A stretch of DNA of 46,390 nucleotides from Myxococcaceae bacterium (GCA_019694595.1 JAIBBQ010000028.1:1-46390); one strand, 5' to 3'; numbered from the stretch's first letter, positions 1,289 to 46,215 are shown. Notes: a model not told the origin generated them from the sequence alone. Numbers and translations: made by a program.

Positions 1289-3178
1289 TCAGCCGCCCGA
1301 CTGCTTGAAGATGAACGGGTAGGTCACCACCACCACACCGCCACCCTTGGGCTTGGGGAAGATCCAGGTCTTCACGCGGCCCGCGACGCAGGTCTCGAGC
1401 TCCGCGTTGTTCACCGTGGACTGGGCCACCGACGAGGTCGCCACCGAGCCCGAACCCGTGATGACGAACTTGATCGCCACCTTGCCTTCGAGCTTCGGGA
1501 ACCGGTTCAGCTGGCTCTCGTAGCAGTACCGGATCTGGCCGCGGTTGGCGTGAATCACCTTGCGAATGAGCTCCTTGTCGAGCGAGCCCATGACCGTCGG
1601 TTCCGACGAGGTGATGCCGATGTCCACGTCCTTCTTGCCGCCGAGCACGCCGACGCCGGTGCCGTAGCCGCCGGTGCCTCCGCCGCGGCCCTTGGTACCG
1701 ATGCCGCCGATGCCGATGGTGTCACCGATGCCGCCGCCGCCCGAGCCCGACCCACGCAGGCCGAGACCACCGAAGCCCTGGGCGTCACCCGCCGCGGCGC
1801 CGAACATGTTGCCCATCGCGCTCTTCAGCTCACCGCCCAGGCCCTGGTGGCCGAAGATGGTGGAGATGCCGCTGTTGGCGCCGCCGCCGAAGACCTTCTG
1901 CACCAGCAAGCGGGCCTGATCCTTGTTGTTCGGGTCGCCCTTGGGCGCCGCGTGCGCCGAGCGCTTGGGCGCTTCCTTCTTGCCCATCTGGCCTTCGTCG
2001 CCCTTGTGCTTCTGCGCGATCTCGCCCGAGTCCTTCTTCTTGTTGAAGCGGTCGAGGCTCTTCTGCACCTCGGGCGGCTTGATGAGCAGCTTGGCGATGC
2101 GCGCCTGGTTGCCCGACAGATCGTCGGCCAGGTCGTCGCCGTCCGCGTCGCGGTTGAGCGCGGTGATCACCGCCGCCGCCCCGAGGAAGAACATCACCAG
2201 GAAGATGTTGAGCACCGTGAAGTCGATGGTGTCGGTGAACGGCACCAGCACCGCCTTGGGCTGCGGCTGGAAGAACGCCTCCAGCACCACGCCGCCCAGG
2301 TCGACCCAGACGAAGTCGTCGCCCTGCAGGGTGATCGAATAGCCGTCGCCGTCGGAGCTCGCGGCGCGGGTCTCCTTCGCCTGCGCCAGCGTCATCACCT
2401 CGGCCCCGCCGCGGCGCTGCAGCTCGCCCTTCATCTTGCTGGTGAAGCGAACGACCGCCCCGTCCTTGCCCTGGCGCGCGGCGACGAACGACGGGCCGCC
2501 GAGCTTGCCGTCGCCCATGGGGAAGCTCACCCCCTGCGCGGTGCCCACGGTGTACGAGCTCTCGCCGTTCGGCGAGAAGTACTGGGTGGCGACCATCTGA
2601 TCGCCCCACATCATGCGGATCTCGAGCCCCAGCGGGCCCGAGCCCTTGCGCATGCGCGGCCGCACGCGGGCAATCTCCCCCGTCGCCTCGTTGCGCACCG
2701 GAGCGGGCGCCGCCGGCTCGTGCGCCGGCACCGCGGGCTGCTGCGGCATCGCCGCGCGGATCTGCTCCGCCGCCACCTCGATGGTGGGGGTGTGCGTCTG
2801 GGTCACGTCGGAAGGCCCGACCATCGTCGGTGCAGGCGCGTCGCCCATTGGGTTCGAGGAAGTGACCGCGCCCTCGCCGGTCTTCTCGACCTTGATGGTG
2901 GTGCCGCCGATGCGGATCTCGTCGCCGAAGGACAGCGCGCCCTTGGTGGTCACCCGCTTGCCGTTGACGAAGGTGCCGTCGACGCTGCCCATGTCGATGA
3001 TCGACAGGCCGCCGTCGGGAGCCACTTCGATGACCGAGTGAATGCGCGACGCCTTCTCGTCATCGAGGCAGAGGTGCGCCGACGAGAGCCGGCCGATCTT
3101 GATGATGTCGCGGTCGTATTCCTTCGCGACCACCAGCTGCTCACCCTTGAACACCTTCAGCGTCAACGGCACGGCCAC
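1289..3178 (-). CDS. gltG: Gliding motility protein GltG: FHA domain, one TM helix, TonB-like C-terminus
   Basis: A 629-residue inner-membrane protein. Residues 28-96 form an FHA domain (GR at 29-30, SRIH at 44-47, a DGTFVNG stretch near 67), which would bind phosphothreonine in the cytoplasm. One membrane helix lies at about 321-341. A Gly-rich stretch follows at 468-514, then the C-terminal domain of the AgmX/PglI type, TonB-like, from about 535, with the YCYESQL motif and paired cysteines 552 and 597. FHA-TM-TonB is the published architecture of GltG, thought to reach from the cytoplasmic motor side into the periplasm. The GTG start at 3178 has an excellent AAGGAGG site. It is 90 bases after gltF in the same run. 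Confidence 0.88.
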   Translation of the reverse strand: MAVPLTLKVFKGEQLVVAKEYDRDIIKIGRLSSAHLCLDDEKASRIHSVIEVAPDGGLSIIDMGSVDGTFVNGKRVTTKGALSFGDEIRIGGTTIKVEKTGEGAVTSSNPMGDAPAPTMVGPSDVTQTHTPTIEVAAEQIRAAMPQQPAVPAHEPAAPAPVRNEATGEIARVRPRMRKGSGPLGLEIRMMWGDQMVATQYFSPNGESSYTVGTAQGVSFPMGDGKLGGPSFVAARQGKDGAVVRFTSKMKGELQRRGGAEVMTLAQAKETRAASSDGDGYSITLQGDDFVWVDLGGVVLEAFFQPQPKAVLVPFTDTIDFTVLNIFLVMFFLGAAAVITALNRDADGDDLADDLSGNQARIAKLLIKPPEVQKSLDRFNKKKDSGEIAQKHKGDEGQMGKKEAPKRSAHAAPKGDPNNKDQARLLVQKVFGGGANSGISTIFGHQGLGGELKSAMGNMFGAAAGDAQGFGGLGLRGSGSGGGGIGDTIGIGGIGTKGRGGGTGGYGTGVGVLGGKKDVDIGITSSEPTVMGSLDKELIRKVIHANRGQIRYCYESQLNRFPKLEGKVAIKFVITGSGSVATSSVAQSTVNNAELETCVAGRVKTWIFPKPKGGGVVVVTYPFIFKQSGG

Positions 3179-37158: not shown

Positions 37159-38082
37159 CTACGGGGTTCCGCCGTCGGGCGCCCAGTGCGCGATGCGCTC
37201 GAGCCAGGACTGGCCGCCGCGCCCGTCGCGCACCACGAAGGTGAAGCGCACGTCCTGCTCCACGTCGTCGGACTTGGGCTTCCACTGGGTGCGGTGGCGC
37301 TCCGACAGCCCGCTGAAGTCCACGCCGCCGGTCTCGTTGGGGCTGAACTTTCCGGCGGTGGCGTACCAGGCGATCTTCCACGACTCGACCAAGTGCACCG
37401 GCTCGAGCTTGAGGCTCGGCACCACGTACGGCTCCTCGGCGTCGGTGAAGTCCACCGGCAGCATCACGAAGGGGCCGGCGCCGCTGAGGCTGAGGCCCGC
37501 GTCGGCTTCCCAGGGCTTGCCGTCGAGCGTCATGCCCGGCAGCTGCGGGGTGACGTTGACCTTCATCTCCGGGAAGAAGCGGCAGCTGAAGACCATCAGC
37601 TTCTGGGCGTAGACGTCCTCGGTGCCCGCGGTGAGGTGAATGACGATGGGCACGCGCAGGCCGCCGAGGCCCTTGAAGGTGTCCTGCTCCAGCACGCCCT
37701 GCAGCAGGAACTTGTCGGCGAGCTGCTGCGCGCCCAGGCGCATCGGCAGCGTGAGCTCTCCGTCGTGCGCCTCGCCCTTGCCGAGCACCACGAACTCACC
37801 TTCGTTGTTGCACTGCAGGTCGCCCTGGTCGGCGCAGGCGCGGACCTCGTAGGCGATCGCCCGGCCCATGCCCTTGGGGTCCGCGATGCGCCAGGTGACC
37901 TGCAGCTCCTGGTTGAAGGTGGCGAACAGCTTCAGCGGGTCGTCGAGCGAGCACTGCTCCGCCATCACCTCGGGCGGCTCGATGCGCACGCCGAGCACGC
38001 GCAGGTCGACCACCTGGCTGGGGTCGTCGGTGGGGCCGACGCACGCGGCGGCGAGCAACGTGAGCAGGAGCGCGCGGCGCAT
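37159..38082 (-). CDS. Lipoprotein coupled to the TonB-dependent receptor
   Basis: A 307-residue protein with a lipoprotein signal (MRRALLLTLLAAAC, Cys14). The body is beta-rich with several extracellular-style cysteines (EQCSLDDP, RACADQGDLQC, FSCRFFPEM) and ends WLERIAHWAPDGGTP. I do not recognise the family. The ATG at 38082 overlaps the receptor stop by one base (TGATG), so the two are made together. Lipoproteins paired with TonB-dependent receptors often sit on the outer surface and capture the substrate, as SusD or TbpB do; that role here is inferred from context. Confidence 0.8.
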   Translation of the reverse strand: MRRALLLTLLAAACVGPTDDPSQVVDLRVLGVRIEPPEVMAEQCSLDDPLKLFATFNQELQVTWRIADPKGMGRAIAYEVRACADQGDLQCNNEGEFVVLGKGEAHDGELTLPMRLGAQQLADKFLLQGVLEQDTFKGLGGLRVPIVIHLTAGTEDVYAQKLMVFSCRFFPEMKVNVTPQLPGMTLDGKPWEADAGLSLSGAGPFVMLPVDFTDAEEPYVVPSLKLEPVHLVESWKIAWYATAGKFSPNETGGVDFSGLSERHRTQWKPKSDDVEQDVRFTFVVRDGRGGQSWLERIAHWAPDGGTP

Positions 38083-40727
38083 CAGAAGCTCCCCTTCACG
38101 CCGAGGATCGGCAGGAACGGAATGCCCGGCACCTCGTATTCCTGGCGGAACCGGTAGTCGTAGAAGCTGCCTTCGACGTTCTTGATGTTGAGGATGTTCT
38201 GCACGTCGAGGAACAGCCCGAGCGACCAGCTGTCGAACTGGAAGGTCTTGTCGATGCGCACGTCGAGCTGGGCGAAGTCCTTCACCCGGGCCGAGCGCGA
38301 GGCGCCGAGCTTGATGGCGAAGCTGTTCGCGTCGGCGCGGTACTCGTCGTACCCGGTCACCAGCGGGCTCTTGGGCCGCCCCGTCACGTAGCGGAAGCGC
38401 GAGCCGATCTCGAAGCCGTACGGCAGCCGCACGCTGCCCACCACGGTCAGGATGTGCGTCTGGTCGAAGCTGGTGAGCACGTACGGCTTGTCGCTGCCCG
38501 CGGTGCGCTCTTCCGAGCGGGCGAGCGTGTACGCCACCCAGCCGAAGAAGCGCTTCGACACCTCGTGCCGCAGCATCACCTCGAGGCCGTACGCGCGGCC
38601 GAGGCCGTCGTTGGCGAAGCGCTGGCTGGTGACGCTCCCGTCGGGGTTGGTCACCGTGGGCCCGGGCGAGCTCACGTTCTCGAAGCGCCGGTTGTAGAAG
38701 CCCGTGAGGTCGACGTTGATGTAGTCGGTGAAGCGGTGCGAGACGCCCAGCGACGACTGGAACGCGCGCTCGTGGGTCAGCGACGGGGTACCGAACGGCG
38801 GCGGCTCCATGTCGGTGGCGGACGGCGGCTGGGTGTAGAGGCCGATGGAGCCCTTGAGCGCGGTGGACTCGAGCAGTTCGTAGCGCGCCCACAGCCGGGG
38901 GTCGAAGGCGTGGCGCGTCTGGCCGTCGAGCAGCGCGTGCGAGGCGCGCAGGCCCGGGGTGAGGGTGAGCTTGCCGATCTTGAGATCGGTCTCCAGGAAG
39001 ATGGCGCCATCGAAGGAGTCGAGCTGGCGGGCGACGCGCTGGGACTCGACCTTCGGCTCGGCGCCGGGGAACGGCACGTACTGGTTGCCGGACAGCACCG
39101 GCAGCTCCGCCGAGCCGGCGATGCGGTCGAACACCGTGTCCACACCCGCGCGCACCGTGAGGTGGCTGTTCACCTCGACCGCGAGGTCCTCGCGCAGGCC
39201 GACCTCGTACTCGTCGGCGCGCACGCTGGAGGCGCCGAAGCGCAGCGTGCCCAGGTCGTAGCCGAGGTACGGCGTGGTCTTCAGCGAGACGTTGCCTTCG
39301 CGGTAGTTCCAGGTGCCCACCACGCGGTGGAAGGTGGTGTGGAAGTCGACGTTGACGTCGCGGTTGCGCCCGCCGCCGGTGGCGACCAGCTGCAGGGCGT
39401 CGTCGGAGCCGAAGGCCATCACCGAGCCGGTGGAGCGGGTCGGCTCGCCGCGCTTGCCGCCGAAGTCGGCGCGGGCCTGGTAGTCCCAGTACCGCGGGAG
39501 GATGAGCAGCGAGCCGCCTTCGGGGTCCTTCGGCAGCACCAGCGGCAGCAGCGCGTCGATGTAGCTGCGGCGCACCGCCGCGGCGACCGAGACCGAGTCG
39601 GTGATCGGCGCCTCGAAGAAGAGGCTGGTGTCCTGGAGGTCGATCTTCGCCACGCCGTGGTACGTGTCGGTGGCGCCCTTGCGCGTCGCCACGTCGATCA
39701 CGCCGCCCACCGCGCGGCCGTAGCGAGCGCCGAAGCCCCCGGGGAAGAAGTCGATGCGGTCGAGGAACTCGCTGTTGACGACCGAAGGCCCGCCGCCCAG
39801 GTGGTAGAGGATGGGGATCTCGACGCCGTCGAGGAAGGTGAGCGTCTGGTCGGGCTGCGCGCCGCGGACGATGAGCTGCCCCGAGAGGAACGGGGCGCGT
39901 GCCACGCCGGGGAAGTTCTGGATCACCCGCACCGGATCGCCGAAGGAGCCGGGGATCTTCTGCAGCTCGTTGCGGTCGAGCGTGCGCCGCACGACTTCCT
40001 TCTTCTCGCGCTCGGCGCGCACCACCGTCTCGTACCCCTGGGTCTTCGGCCGCACGTAGTAGACGACCTCGCGCTGCTCGCCCCGCTCCAGCTTCTCGGT
40101 GGTGAGGAACGGCTCGTGCTCGCTCGCCACCACCTGCACCGCGCAGGGCCCGGCGTGCAGCGGCAGCTCGAAGAACCCTTCGGCGTTCGACAGCGCGTCG
40201 ATGAGATCGGGCTGGTTGGTGCAGCGCACCGTGGCGCCTTCGATGCGGGTGCGGCTCCCGCGGCTGACCAGGCGGCCGAGCAGCTTGGCGTTGGGCGGCG
40301 GCGGCCCGGCGTCCTGTCCGGCGTCGGGCGCCTCGGGCTCGACGCCCGCGTCGGCCACCCGCAGCACGAAGTGGTACGTGTATTCGACCTGCACCGCAGC
40401 GGGCGTGCCGTCGAGCTCCGCGGGGCTGAAGCGGAAGCGCTTCACCGCCGCCAGCGCGGCCTCGTCGAAGCCATGGCCGACCGCCTCGAGCACCTCGGCG
40501 TCGGGCACCGAGCCGTCGGCGCCGATGGTGATCTGCATGCGCACGCTGGCGGTGAGCCCCTGGGCCAGGGCGTCCGGCGGGTAGTCGGCGTCGACGAGCT
40601 CGAGCAGCTCGGGAGCCTTGGTGAGCACCGGCACGTGCACGCCCGCGTCGACCTCCACCACCTTGGCGCCTTCGTAAGCGCCGGCGGGAAGGCCGAGGAC
40701 GAGCAGGCAGGCAGCGAGGAGCCTCAC
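38082..40727 (-). CDS. TonB-dependent receptor carrying an N-terminal TonB C-terminal domain
   Basis: An 881-residue outer-membrane receptor. After the signal peptide (VRLLAACLLVLGLPAGAYEG), residues about 38-122 match the TonB C-terminal fold (YPPDALAQGLTASVRMQITI, DEAALAAVKRFRFSPA). A Pro/Ala linker follows, then a carboxypeptidase-regulatory-like domain (147-225), a TonB-box-like ETVVR, the plug (about 245-350; IRG-type LIVRGAQPDQTLTFLDGVEIP) and a barrel ending in Phe (LGVKGSF). The GTG at 40727 gives the best signal peptide; the frame extends to 40802, across the Trm112 start. Substrate unknown. It is divergent from the Trm112-like gene and co-translated with a lipoprotein. Confidence 0.9.
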   Translation of the reverse strand: MRLLAACLLVLGLPAGAYEGAKVVEVDAGVHVPVLTKAPELLELVDADYPPDALAQGLTASVRMQITIGADGSVPDAEVLEAVGHGFDEAALAAVKRFRFSPAELDGTPAAVQVEYTYHFVLRVADAGVEPEAPDAGQDAGPPPPNAKLLGRLVSRGSRTRIEGATVRCTNQPDLIDALSNAEGFFELPLHAGPCAVQVVASEHEPFLTTEKLERGEQREVVYYVRPKTQGYETVVRAEREKKEVVRRTLDRNELQKIPGSFGDPVRVIQNFPGVARAPFLSGQLIVRGAQPDQTLTFLDGVEIPILYHLGGGPSVVNSEFLDRIDFFPGGFGARYGRAVGGVIDVATRKGATDTYHGVAKIDLQDTSLFFEAPITDSVSVAAAVRRSYIDALLPLVLPKDPEGGSLLILPRYWDYQARADFGGKRGEPTRSTGSVMAFGSDDALQLVATGGGRNRDVNVDFHTTFHRVVGTWNYREGNVSLKTTPYLGYDLGTLRFGASSVRADEYEVGLREDLAVEVNSHLTVRAGVDTVFDRIAGSAELPVLSGNQYVPFPGAEPKVESQRVARQLDSFDGAIFLETDLKIGKLTLTPGLRASHALLDGQTRHAFDPRLWARYELLESTALKGSIGLYTQPPSATDMEPPPFGTPSLTHERAFQSSLGVSHRFTDYINVDLTGFYNRRFENVSSPGPTVTNPDGSVTSQRFANDGLGRAYGLEVMLRHEVSKRFFGWVAYTLARSEERTAGSDKPYVLTSFDQTHILTVVGSVRLPYGFEIGSRFRYVTGRPKSPLVTGYDEYRADANSFAIKLGASRSARVKDFAQLDVRIDKTFQFDSWSLGLFLDVQNILNIKNVEGSFYDYRFRQEYEVPGIPFLPILGVKGSF

Positions 40728-41040: not shown

Positions 41041-42606
41041 TCAGACGCCGAACCAGGGCAGCTTCTCGCCGGCCACCGCCCACACGGCGTCAGGGTGCGC
41101 CGCGACCGAGCCCACGGTCGGCCCGGAACCGGAGCCGCCGTACACGTCGCTGGCGAGCGGGCGGGCGCCGTAGCCCTGGTTGGTCGACTCGCCCCACTCC
41201 GAGCGAGGCACGCCCATGGCCTGGAGGATCGACCCGTAGAGCTGCTGGATGGTGAGCCCGAAGCGCACCCCGTCGCGCGGCGTGGAGCCGAGGTTGCGGT
41301 AGTCGAGGAAGTTGCCGGTGCGGACCGCGCCGTCGGCGCCGCCGAAGGTGACGAAGACCCGCCCGGAGATGCCGTGGTCGGGCTCGCCCATCTCGCTCAC
41401 CGGGAAGATGAGGCTGCGATCGAGCAGCGTCTTGCCGTCGGTGTCGGTGATGGCGTCGAGCTTGGCGGCGAGCGGCACCACCACCTCGCTCACCACCTTG
41501 CGCGCGGCTTCCACGGCCTTGCCCTGCGCGAGCGGATCTCCCGCGGCGAAGTGCTCGATCTGGTGGTGCCAGTCGGCGGTGTCGCCGAACGAGAAGAGGT
41601 TGTAGTTCGTGTAGCAGACGGCGACGCGGGTCAGGTTGCACTGCAGCGCCGCGACCAGCACGTCCTCGTAGCTGCGCAAGGTGGCGACGTGCGACGCGGA
41701 GCCGGCGGCCTCGCCGGCGGGCTGGAGATCGGCGGGCGCGCTCGGCTTGCCGGGGCAGCTCAGGGTGCCCACCACCTGCTGACGCCGCTCGATCTCCGCC
41801 AGGTGCTCGACGTGCTGGTCGAGCCGCAGCTTGTCGCCCGACGAGAGGCGCGCGTCGCCGCGCAGCTTCTTGAAGCTCTCCGAGACGAGGTCGACCACGC
41901 TCTTGCGCGGCTTGGCGGTGGGCGCGCCGGGCACGAAGCCGCCGAAGAGCTGCGAGTACAGCTGGTAGGCGCTCTTCACCTGCTCGCTGCCGAGGCCGAC
42001 GATGCTCCCGTTGCGCGAGGCGTAGCTGGGGGTGCCTTCGTACGGGCCCGAGCCGAAGAGCACCGAGCGGCGGGTGCCGCCGAACGACGGGTAGAAGCTC
42101 GGCGAGTCGGCGAGCACCTGGTCGATGGAGCGCCGGTAGTAGTCGGGCCGCGAGAAGCCCTGGCCGACGCCGAAGTTCCCCAGGTGCATCGAGTTGTGGG
42201 TCCAGCTCCCGGAGTAGTCGCAGCCGCGGATGACGTTCGCCTTGGCGATCAGCGCGTCGGTGAGCAGGCCGCTCGAGGTGGACAGCACGTCGCTGACGCG
42301 CATGACGCCACCGCTGGCCGAGCCCTTGAGCTGGGTGCGGCGGATCGAGAAGCCGGCGTAGTCCTTCACCTCGGCCACCGGCAGGCCCGACGGGCAGTAC
42401 GCGTCGCCGCGAATGGTGCTGTTGGGGAAGCAGTAGGCGAGGAAGATCTTCCGGTTCGCCGCCGCGGTCTGCGCCTGCGCCTCGGAGAGGAGCGACGGCA
42501 GCACGGGAATGGCGAGCAGCGCGCCGCCCGCGCCCTTGAGGAGCCACCGCCGGCTGAGCGGCGTGCCCTGCTGCGCGATGACGTCGGGAAGGTCTCGAGC
42601 CTTCAT
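41041..42606 (-). CDS. Tat-exported DUF1552 protein
   Basis: A 521-residue protein with a twin-arginine signal (SRRWLLKGAGGALLAIPVLPSL, residues about 18-39) pointing to export folded, perhaps with a cofactor. The body fits DUF1552: FLAYCFPNSTIRG at the start, DYSGSWTHNSMHLG, the helical SFKKLRGDARLSSGDKLRLD region, and DWHHQIEHF then SEMGEPDHGISG near the C-terminus, rich in His, Asp and Glu that could bind metal. The function of DUF1552 is unknown. The ATG at 42606 overlaps the DUF1592-type lipoprotein stop (ATGA). Such pairs are frequent in Planctomycetes and Myxococcota. Confidence 0.85.
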   Translation of the reverse strand: MKARDLPDVIAQQGTPLSRRWLLKGAGGALLAIPVLPSLLSEAQAQTAAANRKIFLAYCFPNSTIRGDAYCPSGLPVAEVKDYAGFSIRRTQLKGSASGGVMRVSDVLSTSSGLLTDALIAKANVIRGCDYSGSWTHNSMHLGNFGVGQGFSRPDYYRRSIDQVLADSPSFYPSFGGTRRSVLFGSGPYEGTPSYASRNGSIVGLGSEQVKSAYQLYSQLFGGFVPGAPTAKPRKSVVDLVSESFKKLRGDARLSSGDKLRLDQHVEHLAEIERRQQVVGTLSCPGKPSAPADLQPAGEAAGSASHVATLRSYEDVLVAALQCNLTRVAVCYTNYNLFSFGDTADWHHQIEHFAAGDPLAQGKAVEAARKVVSEVVVPLAAKLDAITDTDGKTLLDRSLIFPVSEMGEPDHGISGRVFVTFGGADGAVRTGNFLDYRNLGSTPRDGVRFGLTIQQLYGSILQAMGVPRSEWGESTNQGYGARPLASDVYGGSGSGPTVGSVAAHPDAVWAVAGEKLPWFGV

Positions 42607-44453
42607 GGTGCGGTCACCCGGTGACGGAAGCCCTGCGACATCACACTGGCCTTGAAGACGTCCTTGAGGCTCTTGCCGGAGCGGGCCAGCGTCTCCAGCT
42701 CCGACAGACGGCAGCCGTCGGCGGCGGGGTCTTCTTCGGCCTTCTGCGCGGTGAAGCGGAAGAGCTGCGCGGAGAGGCACGCTTCGAAGCGGCCGGAGCT
42801 GGCGATGCGCTCGGTGAGCTCCTTGGCGTCGGCGGCGACGGCCTCGGTGCCGCCCACGTGCGGAGACGCGGCGGTCTTCACGTCGAAGGTCTTCAGCGCC
42901 TTGCCCTGGTCGTCGTACGCCGTCTCCCGGCTGCGCTCGCGGCCCAGCGGGTCGAAGTCCTCGGTCAGGTACCCCAGCGGGTTGATGAGCGTGCGGTGGC
43001 AGCCGAGGCAGACCGAGCCGCTGACCTCGGTGAGCCCTTCGACCTTCTGCCGGCTGCTGAGCACGTCGGTGGTCTGCAGGGTCGAGTTGGCGGCGCCGGG
43101 CGGTGGAGCGCTGAGCACGTCGCAGAGCACCGCGGTGCGCAGGCGCACGCCCTTCTTGATGGGGTTGGTCTCGAAGCGGCCGTTGGCGGTGAAGCCGACG
43201 CGGGTGATGAGGCCGGCGCGGCGGGTGCCGGCGGGCGCGGGCGCGGTGGCGCTGCCGTCCCACGGCTGGGCGCCGTAGAGCGCGGCCACCTGGGCATCCC
43301 TGGTGTACACGGCGGTGTCGGTGAGGAAGTCGCGGGTCCCCGCGCCGGTGTCGAAGGCGTGGCGCGCGGCGCCGAGCAGGTCCTCGACGATGCCGGGCCG
43401 CGTGTCGTGGGTGGGCGCGGGCCCTTCCATCGCCACTGCGCGGTACGCCGGCACGGTGAGCTGGTCGGTCAGGTCCACCGCGCCGCGGCGCACCCAGAGC
43501 CACTGGTCGAAGAACTCGTCGCGCACCGCCTGGGCGCGCACGTCGGCGAGCAGGCGATCGACCTGCGCCTCGTAGCCCGCCTCGGTGTCGAGCGCGCCCG
43601 AGGTCGCGGCCGCCCACAGCGCGTCGTCGGGGGGCTCGTTGGTGAGGTGAAACGACAGGCGGCTGGCGAGCGCGACGCCGGTCAGCTGCGCGCTGGTGTC
43701 GGAGAGCGCAGCGCCCCGCCCTTCGACCAGGAAGGTGAAGGCGGGCTGGGCGAGCAGCGCGGTGAGGACGTCGGCGAACACCACGGCTTCTCCGCCGTCG
43801 CCGCGCGCCGCGTCCGCCGCGGAAGCGATGAGGGCCGCCTGCTCGGTGGTCATGGTGCCGCGCAGCACCCGGGGCCCAAGGCGATCGACCAGCGTCCGCG
43901 CGCAGGTGACGTCGTTGGCCGCGTTGCCGTCGCTGGCACAGGCGCCGAAGATCGCCGTGCGCTGCTGGGCCGTCGATGCCAGGGACTCCGCCACCGCGCG
44001 CGCCACCGCGAAGAGCGCGTCGGCCTGCTGCTGCGAGAGCTGCTGATCCGAGCGGGTGAAGCCGTGGGCGCCGAAGCTGTTGGGCGCGACCTCCACGTCG
44101 TCGGGGTACAGGGCGAGCTTGGGGGCCGCGGCGGCCAGCGCGGCGGTGGCCGTCGCCGGCGCGAGCTGCTGGACCGCCAGCCGCAGCGTGTTCTGGTACT
44201 GCACCTTGCTCAGGCGCCGCAGCGGCAGGTCCACGGCGGTGCGCGCCGGGTCGCACTTGAACCGCAGCGGCGCAGGAGTGACCGCCCCATCGCCGCCGCC
44301 GGCAGTGCCGCCACCCAGGCCCGGAAAAGGCTGACCGCCACCGGCGCTGGAGTTCCCCGGCCCCATTTCCACCGCGCGCCACGGCTCGGCGACGTCGATG
44401 GCGGCATCGCAGCCGGCCAGGGTGCCCAGGAGAAGGATCGGGAGTCGACGCAT
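42603..44453 (-). CDS. DUF1587/1592/1588/1585-type lipoprotein with CxxCH
   Basis: A 616-residue lipoprotein (lipobox LAGC, Cys15), starting at an ATG with GGAGG five bases upstream. A Gly-rich linker is followed by the domain series typical of these proteins: DLPLRRLSKVQYQNTLR (DUF1587-like, about 75), helical middle segments including SRLSFHLTNEPPDDALW (DUF1595/1592-like), then GRFETNPIKKGVRLRTAVLC and VCLGCHRTLINPLGYLTEDF (DUF1588-like). The last holds C482xxC485-H486, a c-type heme motif. An ending like LETLARSGKSLKDVF fits DUF1585. Function unknown; a surface redox or polymer-degrading role together with the DUF1552 partner is inference. Confidence 0.85.
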   Translation of the reverse strand: MRRLPILLLGTLAGCDAAIDVAEPWRAVEMGPGNSSAGGGQPFPGLGGGTAGGGDGAVTPAPLRFKCDPARTAVDLPLRRLSKVQYQNTLRLAVQQLAPATATAALAAAAPKLALYPDDVEVAPNSFGAHGFTRSDQQLSQQQADALFAVARAVAESLASTAQQRTAIFGACASDGNAANDVTCARTLVDRLGPRVLRGTMTTEQAALIASAADAARGDGGEAVVFADVLTALLAQPAFTFLVEGRGAALSDTSAQLTGVALASRLSFHLTNEPPDDALWAAATSGALDTEAGYEAQVDRLLADVRAQAVRDEFFDQWLWVRRGAVDLTDQLTVPAYRAVAMEGPAPTHDTRPGIVEDLLGAARHAFDTGAGTRDFLTDTAVYTRDAQVAALYGAQPWDGSATAPAPAGTRRAGLITRVGFTANGRFETNPIKKGVRLRTAVLCDVLSAPPPGAANSTLQTTDVLSSRQKVEGLTEVSGSVCLGCHRTLINPLGYLTEDFDPLGRERSRETAYDDQGKALKTFDVKTAASPHVGGTEAVAADAKELTERIASSGRFEACLSAQLFRFTAQKAEEDPAADGCRLSELETLARSGKSLKDVFKASVMSQGFRHRVTAP

Positions 44454-44486
44454 CGAGGCCTCCACACCTTGAGCAAGATCGGCGCC

Positions 44487-44520
44487 CGAAGTCGCATCGC
44501 GCCTCCCGGGCCTGACTTCG
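44487..44520. promoter_or_regulatory. Inverted repeat between divergent genes
   Basis: CGAAGTC (44487-44493) and GACTTCG (44514-44520) are perfect inverted copies, 27 bases start to start, in the 123-base gap between the DUF1592 lipoprotein and tatD. The spacing is close to two and a half helical turns. Could be an operator serving either gene; no clear promoter boxes were found. Confidence 0.25.
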
Positions 44521-44576
44521 CGACCTTGGCGGCCTGCTGGTGGTACATGCATGCACCAACTGGCCGGATTCACTGG

Positions 44577-45356
44577 ATGATCGACACACACTGCCACCTC
44601 GACGCCCCCCGCTTCGACGCCGACCGCGAGGCGGTGACGCAGCGTGCCTTCGCCGCAGGCCTCGAGGCCATCGTGGTGCCCGGCGTGGAGCCGACCCAGT
44701 GGCCGGCGCTTCTCGACTGGCCTCGGCGCGACCCGCGCATCGTGGTGGGCCTGGGCATTCACCCCCAGTTTCTCCCCGACCTCTCCCCCGCCGACGACGA
44801 CCGCGCGCTCGCGGAGCTCGACGTGCTGCTGGGCCGCGGGGGCGCGAAGGCGGTGGGCGAGTGCGGGCTCGACGGCCCCACGACGGAGCGCGTCCCGATG
44901 GATCGGCAGCTGGCGATCCTCCGCGCGCACTTCGCGCTCGCCCGGAAGCACCGGCTCCCGCTCCTGATGCACTGCCTGCGCGCCCACCCGCAGCTGCGCA
45001 CCCTGCTGGAAGAGGAGCCGGTCCCCGAGGCGGGGCTCTTGATGCACAGCTACTCGGGCTCGCACGAGCTGGTGAAGCGGTACGTGCAGGCGGGGTGTCA
45101 CTTCAGCTTCGCGGGCCCCATCACCTTCGTCGACGCGCGCCGGCCGCTCGATGCCCTGGCGGCGATCCCGCTCGAGCGGCTGATGGTGGAGACCGACGCG
45201 CCCGATCAAGCGCCCCACCCTCACCGGGGCAGCCGCTGCGAGCCGGCGCACCTGCCCCTGATGATCGACGCCGTCGTCCGGGTGAAGGGCCCGGAGGCAC
45301 GCGCCGCGGTCACCGAGAACGCCAGGCGCTTCTTTCGGCTGCCCGAACCGAAGTAA
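44577..45356 (+). CDS. tatD: TatD family metal-dependent hydrolase
   Basis: A 259-residue TIM-barrel metallohydrolase. Metal ligands are visible in order: HxH of DTHCHLD (residues 4-6), Glu in VGECGLD, His of MHCLRAH and MHSYSG, and Asp in ETDAPDQAP. TatD proteins are 3'-5' exonucleases involved in DNA repair, and some act on D-aminoacyl-tRNA. The frame has an earlier ATG (44547) that would add ten residues; the ATG at 44577 gives the usual MIDTHCHLD start. Neither has a strong ribosome site. It is followed by tcdA after four bases. Confidence 0.93.
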   Translation: MIDTHCHLDAPRFDADREAVTQRAFAAGLEAIVVPGVEPTQWPALLDWPRRDPRIVVGLGIHPQFLPDLSPADDDRALAELDVLLGRGGAKAVGECGLDGPTTERVPMDRQLAILRAHFALARKHRLPLLMHCLRAHPQLRTLLEEEPVPEAGLLMHSYSGSHELVKRYVQAGCHFSFAGPITFVDARRPLDALAAIPLERLMVETDAPDQAPHPHRGSRCEPAHLPLMIDAVVRVKGPEARAAVTENARRFFRLPEPK

Positions 45357-45360
45357 TGGG

Positions 45361-46215
45361 GTGGGCGTGACTCCCGACGTGCACCAGCCCCTGCCTCCGG
45401 CGCCCCCCGCGCCCCGCCCCTTCAAGCTCCACCGCCGCTTCGATCGGACCGCCCGGCTCATCGGCGACTCCGGCGTCGAGCGCCTGCAGCGCGCCCGGGT
45501 GCTGGTGTTCGGGCTGGGCGGCGTGGGGAGCTACGCGGTCGAAGGCCTGGTCCGCAGCGGCGTGGGTCACCTGACCCTGGTGGACTTCGACGTGGTGTGC
45601 GTCACCAACACCAACCGGCAGCTGCACGCCACCGTGAGCACCGTCGGCAAGTCGAAGGCGGAGCTGATGGCGGCCCGCTGCGCCCAGATCAACCCGGAGG
45701 TGTCGGTGGAGGCGCGGCAGGCCTTCTACCGGGAAGACGTGGCGGCGGCGCAGCTCGACGGCCAGTGGGACTTCGTGGTCGACGCCATCGACAACGTGAA
45801 GGCGAAGCTCAACCTCCTGCACGAGTGCCTGGCGCGCAAGCTGCCGGTCGTGAGTTCGATGGGCGCGGCCGGGCGGCTCGACCCCACGCGCATCCGCGTC
45901 GAGGACCTGTGCGAAACGCACATGGATCCGTTCGCCAAGGACATCCGCAAGCTCCTGAAGAAGAAGTACGGGCACGACACCAACGCGCCGACCGGCATCA
46001 CGGCCGTCTATTCCATCGAGCCGCGCCGCGACCCCATCGAGCTGCGGTACGACGACGCGACCGAAGGGTTCCTGTGTGTCTGCCCGCACGGCGAGAACGA
46101 GTTCCACTCGTGCGAGCACCGCAACCAGATCGACGGCAGCGTGGCCTTCGTCACGTCGGTCTTCGGCATGAACATGTCGGGCGTGGTGGTGCGACGGTTG
46201 GCCCAGGGCCGCTGA
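45361..46215 (+). CDS. tcdA: tRNA threonylcarbamoyladenosine dehydratase TcdA
   Basis: A 284-residue E1-like ATP-dependent enzyme that cyclises t6A37 to ct6A in tRNAs. The nucleotide-binding loop is VLVFGLGGVGSYAVEGLVRS (about residues 47-66). Further marks are LVDFDVVCVTNTNRQLHA, DAIDNVKAKLNLLHECL, SMGAAGRLDPTRI and FVTSVFGMNMSG. The start is GTG at 45361; a second GTG at 45367 is also possible, and neither has a clear ribosome site. It is directly behind tatD, so probably in one transcript. Confidence 0.93.
   Translation: MGVTPDVHQPLPPAPPAPRPFKLHRRFDRTARLIGDSGVERLQRARVLVFGLGGVGSYAVEGLVRSGVGHLTLVDFDVVCVTNTNRQLHATVSTVGKSKAELMAARCAQINPEVSVEARQAFYREDVAAAQLDGQWDFVVDAIDNVKAKLNLLHECLARKLPVVSSMGAAGRLDPTRIRVEDLCETHMDPFAKDIRKLLKKKYGHDTNAPTGITAVYSIEPRRDPIELRYDDATEGFLCVCPHGENEFHSCEHRNQIDGSVAFVTSVFGMNMSGVVVRRLAQGR

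Follow-up and report, generated by a model that had tools for sequence, protein, structure and literature searches.

The stretch of DNA analysed here (the window) comprises 46,390 nucleotides of a Myxococcaceae bacterium (GCA_019694595.1, JAIBBQ010000028.1:1-46390). Its minus strand carries a gene for a TonB-dependent receptor of 881 residues (38082..40727, with a GTG start at 40727, a TGA stop at 38082 and a third-position G+C of 0.97), followed by a gene for a lipoprotein of 307 residues (37159..38082, minus strand) whose start codon overlaps the receptor stop in a TGATG (38080..38084, minus strand). The receptor consists of a predicted signal peptide (residues 1–17, MRLLAACLLVLGLPAGA; 40677..40727, assigned by sequence inspection), a TonB C-terminal-type domain (residues 48–122; 40362..40586), a weakly matched CarboxypepD_reg-like domain (residues 151–217; 40077..40277), a TonB-box-like ETVVR (residues 233–237; 40017..40031), a plug domain (residues 250–343; 39699..39980) and a beta-barrel (about residues 361–881; 38085..39647), all on the minus strand.

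The N-terminal domain belongs to Pfam family PF03544 by both sequence and fold. It matches the family model with an E-value of 2.9e-15 (56.9 bits against a cutoff of 24.6), and was also recovered in the genome scan, in the structural model and in the domain tree. The NCBIfam model TIGR01352 ('TonB family protein') covers the same stretch with 54.6 bits, the solved TonB domains 6i97_D and 6fip match it with E-values of about 1e-4, and its conserved block begins at T36-K-x-P39. A Pfam search of the receptor at E 0.1 returned no STN domain, with TonB_C found in that place instead, and an STN-type signalling receptor was therefore ruled out. Thus, the TonB C-terminal domain that the earlier note placed before the plug is real, and is neither an ordinary STN domain nor an unrelated fold. 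The CarboxypepD-like domain described after it is present as a match of 20.4 bits, below the Pfam cutoff of 32.3, and shows strands in the model. The ETVVR stretch is likewise present and is conserved among the 37 aligned receptors (E in 30/37, T in 28/37, V in 29/37, V in 35/37 and R in 26/37), as would fit a TonB box preceding the plug. The plug matches PF07715 above cutoff (E 3.8e-8), and the barrel was assigned from the strand pattern of the model and from a fold search, in which plug and barrel together match BtuB:TonB (2gsk), Cir, FusA and FepA. The receptor thus has the plug-in-barrel arrangement of TonB-dependent outer-membrane transporters.

The receptor was modelled with AlphaFold2 as a single chain from a shallow alignment of 37 receptors (mean pLDDT 82.5). 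The extra domain adopts a TonB-type fold (mature residues 18–103, pLDDT about 88), and is followed by a disordered linker (mature residues 106–124) and the CarboxypepD-like sandwich. ETVVR lies within a second disordered stretch (mature residues 212–226, pLDDT below 50) that forms no strand, and in this single-chain model the fused TonB domain does not pair with the TonB box of the receptor. With the box region disordered and strandless, the intramolecular binding of the box envisaged earlier finds no support in the model. In the receptor alignment the mean column entropy is 1.47 for the fused domain, 1.39 for the plug and 1.96 for the barrel. The fused domain is therefore conserved about as well as the plug and better than the barrel, a figure that is partly biased because the TonB domain contained one of the two search patterns, with the other in the barrel.

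The lipoprotein has a signal peptide and a lipobox ending in Cys14 (LAAAC, with Val at position +2; 38041..38082, minus strand). The cysteine is kept in 34 aligned homologues, and the lipobox is followed by a family motif, (V)DLRVLG..EPPE. No family in Pfam or NCBIfam matches the protein. Its model is of very high confidence (pLDDT 94.3, pTM 0.91) and predominantly beta apart from a pair of short helices, and a Foldseek search gave no informative fold match, returning only generic Ig-like beta-sandwiches (transglutaminase, RbmA and MAdCAM-1) with TM-scores below 0.35. Several paralogues, including those next to two further receptors of the host (L015 and L016), carry an additional 80–90 or so C-terminal residues that are absent from the window copy. 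A TonB-box-like ETVV near the start of the L016 lipoprotein was considered and dropped, as it is not conserved. A lipoprotein starting at the TGATG is thus borne out; together with the TonB_C and plug matches and the lack of an STN domain, the lipobox-bearing product overlapping the receptor stop confirms the original observation.

Two search patterns, one in the TonB domain and one in the barrel, were run against 84,980 species genomes and yielded 56 related loci. By record name these belong to Myxococcota or to MAGs labelled Deltaproteobacteria, save one labelled Comamonas. The latter (L046; BNCN01000015.1, Comamonas sp. KCTC 72670) contains a complete exbB-exbD-tonB-receptor-lipoprotein locus, with a masked stretch in tonB, and its receptor branches inside Myxococcus; the record is probably mislabelled or a mixed assembly. 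The TonB_C domain is found in all 56 loci (in L067 as judged by eye), a figure that is partly biased because one of the search patterns lay in that domain. In each of the 54 loci with sequence at that position, a lipoprotein gene directly follows the receptor gene, an order like that of SusC/SusD, and it mostly starts at the receptor stop.

The same association is seen at the level of whole genomes. Strong receptor matches (E below 1e-100) occur in 133 of 145 Myxococcota genomes, and the lipoprotein is present in 130 of these 133, as against none of the 12 genomes lacking a strong receptor match (Fisher p 4e-15, which is only nominal because the genomes are related). For the best 40 receptors among the genomes, the lipoprotein gene adjoins in 40/40. 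The lipoprotein gene is therefore a true phylum-wide partner of the receptor gene, as the earlier note had supposed for this one locus. Among the full-length matches listed across the phylum, the alignments start at or near the beginning of the model. Chance or an annotation artefact is excluded, as the arrangement recurs in 56 loci and in 133 genomes. In one family, f2 (genomes G062, G073, G096 and G056), some members are missing both receptor and lipoprotein while their close relatives retain both, and such genomes are natural tests of the role of the pair. When plasmid records beyond Myxococcota were searched, the receptor aligned only with receptors over parts other than its TonB domain (Bacteroidota, Leptospira), and the domain alone gave only stand-alone TonB or unannotated matches. 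One of these distant receptors, on the Leptospira interrogans replicon NZ_CP020413.2 (L133), has a CarboxypepD-like domain but no TonB domain by Pfam; it precedes a small gene and then exbB-exbD, a comparable pairing of receptor and motor genes outside Myxococcota.

Of the 56 loci, 18 have tonB immediately upstream of the receptor gene, together with exbB-exbD where the contig extends that far. Myxococcus, Pyxidicoccus, Nannocystis and Sandaracinaceae are represented among these 18; ExbB and ExbD were both confirmed with Pfam in L057. In one additional locus, L069, exbB-exbD is located after the lipoprotein gene. Judged from gene order, this linkage supports probable energisation of the receptor by ExbB-ExbD-TonB. 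On the receptor tree, the tonB-linkage label requires 4–5 changes, and thus the exbB-exbD-tonB-receptor-lipoprotein layout either is ancient and was lost in places or arose repeatedly. The statement that no ExbB/ExbD is nearby is true of the window, where tblastn detected neither gene near the receptor, but it is misleading because many relatives are encoded right after exbB-exbD-tonB. In the host (7.3 Mb, 394 contigs), a canonical exbB-exbD-tonB cluster is present on a contig other than that of the window (C15; L017), with a second TonB on C392. The host genome contains 14 TonB_C matches, three of which are on receptors (the window gene, L015 and L016), and each of these three receptor genes is directly followed by an overlapping gene of the one lipoprotein family. 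Outside the receptor gene, the window contains a further weak TonB_C match (1304–1495, minus strand), which closes a large open frame with similarity to AgmX/PglI-type tails.

In the phylogeny of 67 TonB-type domains, those of the receptors are set apart by a branch with support of 98/93, and are placed weakly (83/51) beside the main myxobacterial TonB clade, which includes the TonB of the host itself. The domains of a second fused type (L113/L131) lie outside the receptor-domain group, so that the fusion of TonB to a receptor may have occurred more than once.

The window receptor groups with the tonB-linked Myxococcus receptors with support of 100/100, including that of M. xanthus AM003 (L055, 52.8% identity). 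It shares 36.6% identity with a second Myxococcus copy, with which it does not group. In M. xanthus, MXAN_0819 is described as a 'biopolymer transporter' (PMC6617876), MXAN_0820 as TonB and MXAN_0821 as a TonB-dependent transporter (PMC6434023), an order that fits exbD-tonB-receptor. The TonB encoded in L084 is 266 residues long, the same length as MXAN_0820, for which the reported TonB fragment ends at residue 266 (PMC6434023). With locus tags matched by order and length, MXAN_0821 is very probably the orthologue of the window receptor, and the gene after it that of the lipoprotein. The window receptor and its lipoprotein, unlike the MXAN_0819–0821 locus, are unlinked to Ton genes. An attempted deletion of MXAN_0821 was unsuccessful (PMC6434023), and the M. 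xanthus counterpart of the window receptor appears to be essential. For predation, a transcriptome study named two likely Ton complexes, MXAN_0819–0821 being one (PMC9548883).

The closest match to the domain arrangement is the myxochelin receptor MxcH, whose family model (NF038079) starts with the same TonB C-terminal-type domain. Residues 38–138 of the window receptor match positions 1–101 of the 792 in this model with an E-value of 1.5e-27, better than that of TIGR01352 for the N-terminal stretch. Membership of the MxcH family was rejected, since the match covers the N-terminal domain only and reaches 96 bits against a cutoff of 925; unlike MxcH, the window receptor includes an additional CarboxypepD-like domain, its barrel is of another type and it is paired with a lipoprotein. 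Two other receptor types, L129 (G005:C71) and L131 (G140:C5), match PF03544, PF07715 and PF00593, as well as MxcH over domain plus plug (positions 1–245 of the model for L131), which indicates that MxcH also has a TonB-domain-plus-receptor layout. Both have an N-terminal TonB domain, with no CarboxypepD-like domain detected, and L129 adjoins an exbB-like gene. The idea that a TonB domain on a receptor is exceptional is therefore not supported, since the placement recurs in MxcH and in two or more further receptor types of myxobacteria. No publication on fused TonB-receptor proteins was found in the open literature searched. A census of 34,893 receptors distinguished five N-terminal layouts, none of them with a TonB domain (PMC6434023); this census required PF00593 (PMC6434023), which has no match in the window receptor, so that the family would go uncounted there. 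The fusion itself is thus already known from MxcH, and what is new is its setting, with three copies in the host, a lipoprotein family and the linkage to Ton genes.

SusD is a helical, TPR-like protein. The SusC/SusD and RagA/RagB systems of Bacteroidota resemble the window locus in having a CarboxypepD-like N-terminal extension, a TonB box, a plug, a barrel and a partner lipoprotein gene, but SusC is without the TonB domain and, in contrast to SusD, a largely beta fold of Ig-like sandwiches is predicted for the window lipoprotein. Assignment of the lipoprotein to the SusD family was rejected, since it has no Pfam match and its Ig-like, largely beta model finds only weak counterparts by fold. 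Oar (MXAN_1450) is also a myxobacterial receptor with a CarboxypepD_reg extension and a TonB box; however, its reported N-terminal extension is CarboxypepD_reg without a TonB domain, and it is a different receptor at a different locus. The fused domain shares its fold with the C-terminal domain of the TonB of ExbB-ExbD-TonB systems, and the host TonB (L017) is similar to it in sequence. In contrast to this motor protein, the fused domain comes without an inner-membrane helix or a proline-rich span, and has a motif of its own, PAE[VL]DG, after the second helix.

The architecture, the co-inheritance of the lipoprotein, the frequent linkage to exbB-exbD-tonB and the conservation of the domain lead us to read the two genes as one unit. 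Our preferred reading, which we hold tentatively, is of a Ton-dependent transporter/lipoprotein unit orthologous to the tonB-linked locus of M. xanthus, in which the TonB copy may act in the periplasm as a docking module. In an ancestor, a duplicated TonB C-terminal domain, plausibly from the tonB directly upstream, would have been joined to the front of the receptor. Energy would reach the transporter conventionally, through the binding of TonB to the ETVVR box. The fused domain would keep the open beta-strand edge that is used by TonB boxes and by TonB-domain dimer partners, and could pair with the TonB tip or with the TonB boxes of neighbouring receptors, holding or selecting the right TonB. 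The lipoprotein would sit in the outer membrane beside the barrel as a substrate-handling or lid-like partner. In FusB, a TonB homologue, a single strand edge is contested by the TonB box, a dimer partner and the cargo (PMC13253070), which by analogy offers a precedent for docking by the fused domain. Weighing against this reading are the disordered box region of the AlphaFold2 model, the location of exbB-exbD-tonB on another contig of the host, the weak placement of the fused domains next to the TonB clade and the partial bias in the conservation figure.

The fused domain might instead be auto-inhibitory, binding the TonB box of its own or a neighbouring copy by strand addition and keeping the receptor silent until ligand triggers displacement by TonB. 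This is unlikely, though the TonB C-terminal fold is retained, the box is conserved and the two disordered linkers (mature residues 106–124 and 212–226) are long enough. The strandless box in the AlphaFold2 model argues weakly against it, as a single chain modelled from a shallow alignment carries little weight here, for pairing within or between copies. An affinity for peptidoglycan has been proposed for TonB C-terminal domains, and the fused domain, being periplasmic and flexibly linked, might tether the receptor to the cell wall, or position its periplasmic part, without contacting TonB. We regard such an anchor or spacer as rather improbable: the sequence tests run gave no pointer to wall binding, and the tonB link in 18 loci favours a Ton-related role. 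Equally improbable, in our judgement, is that the domain binds an incoming or outgoing periplasmic protein or peptide, as FusB binds ferredoxin. The TonB-type domain of FusB does bind cargo at the TonB-box strand (PMC13253070), and Oar, a TonB-dependent transporter of M. xanthus, moves a protein (PMC6434023), but the FusB arginine pair (RRxxYP) is not seen among the receptor domains in the domain-tree alignment. That the domain is a roleless by-product of fusion is very improbable, since it is kept in every locus, the full-length matches listed begin at or near the model start and it is nearly as conserved as the plug, even though Oar functions in PopC secretion without its N-terminal extension (PMC6434023), a parallel indicating that N-terminal domains can be dispensable.

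Receptors of Ton systems are normally dispensable and carry no motor part. Here, a receptor family present in almost a whole phylum bears a copy of the force-transmitting tip of TonB, and is accompanied by a dedicated lipoprotein family and in many cases by a motor of its own. As a bolder extension of the docking reading, and a much less probable one, the TonB tip of the receptor may pair with the tip of a dedicated TonB, coupling motor, receptor and lipoprotein in an essential process (e.g. envelope upkeep) rather than nutrient scavenging, in nearly all Myxococcota. The family offers a route to finding which important process needs a TonB-driven transporter, and the probable M. xanthus member, which could not be deleted (PMC6434023), provides a defined place to study an extra TonB domain on the outer-membrane side. 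The receptor-lipoprotein unit, its link to the Ton motor and the likely essential orthologue are more interesting than the fusion alone.

Outside the receptor and lipoprotein genes, the window also contains adjacent DUF1552 and DUF1592/1588/1595 genes (41041–45461, minus strand), a gene pair mainly known in planctomycetes.
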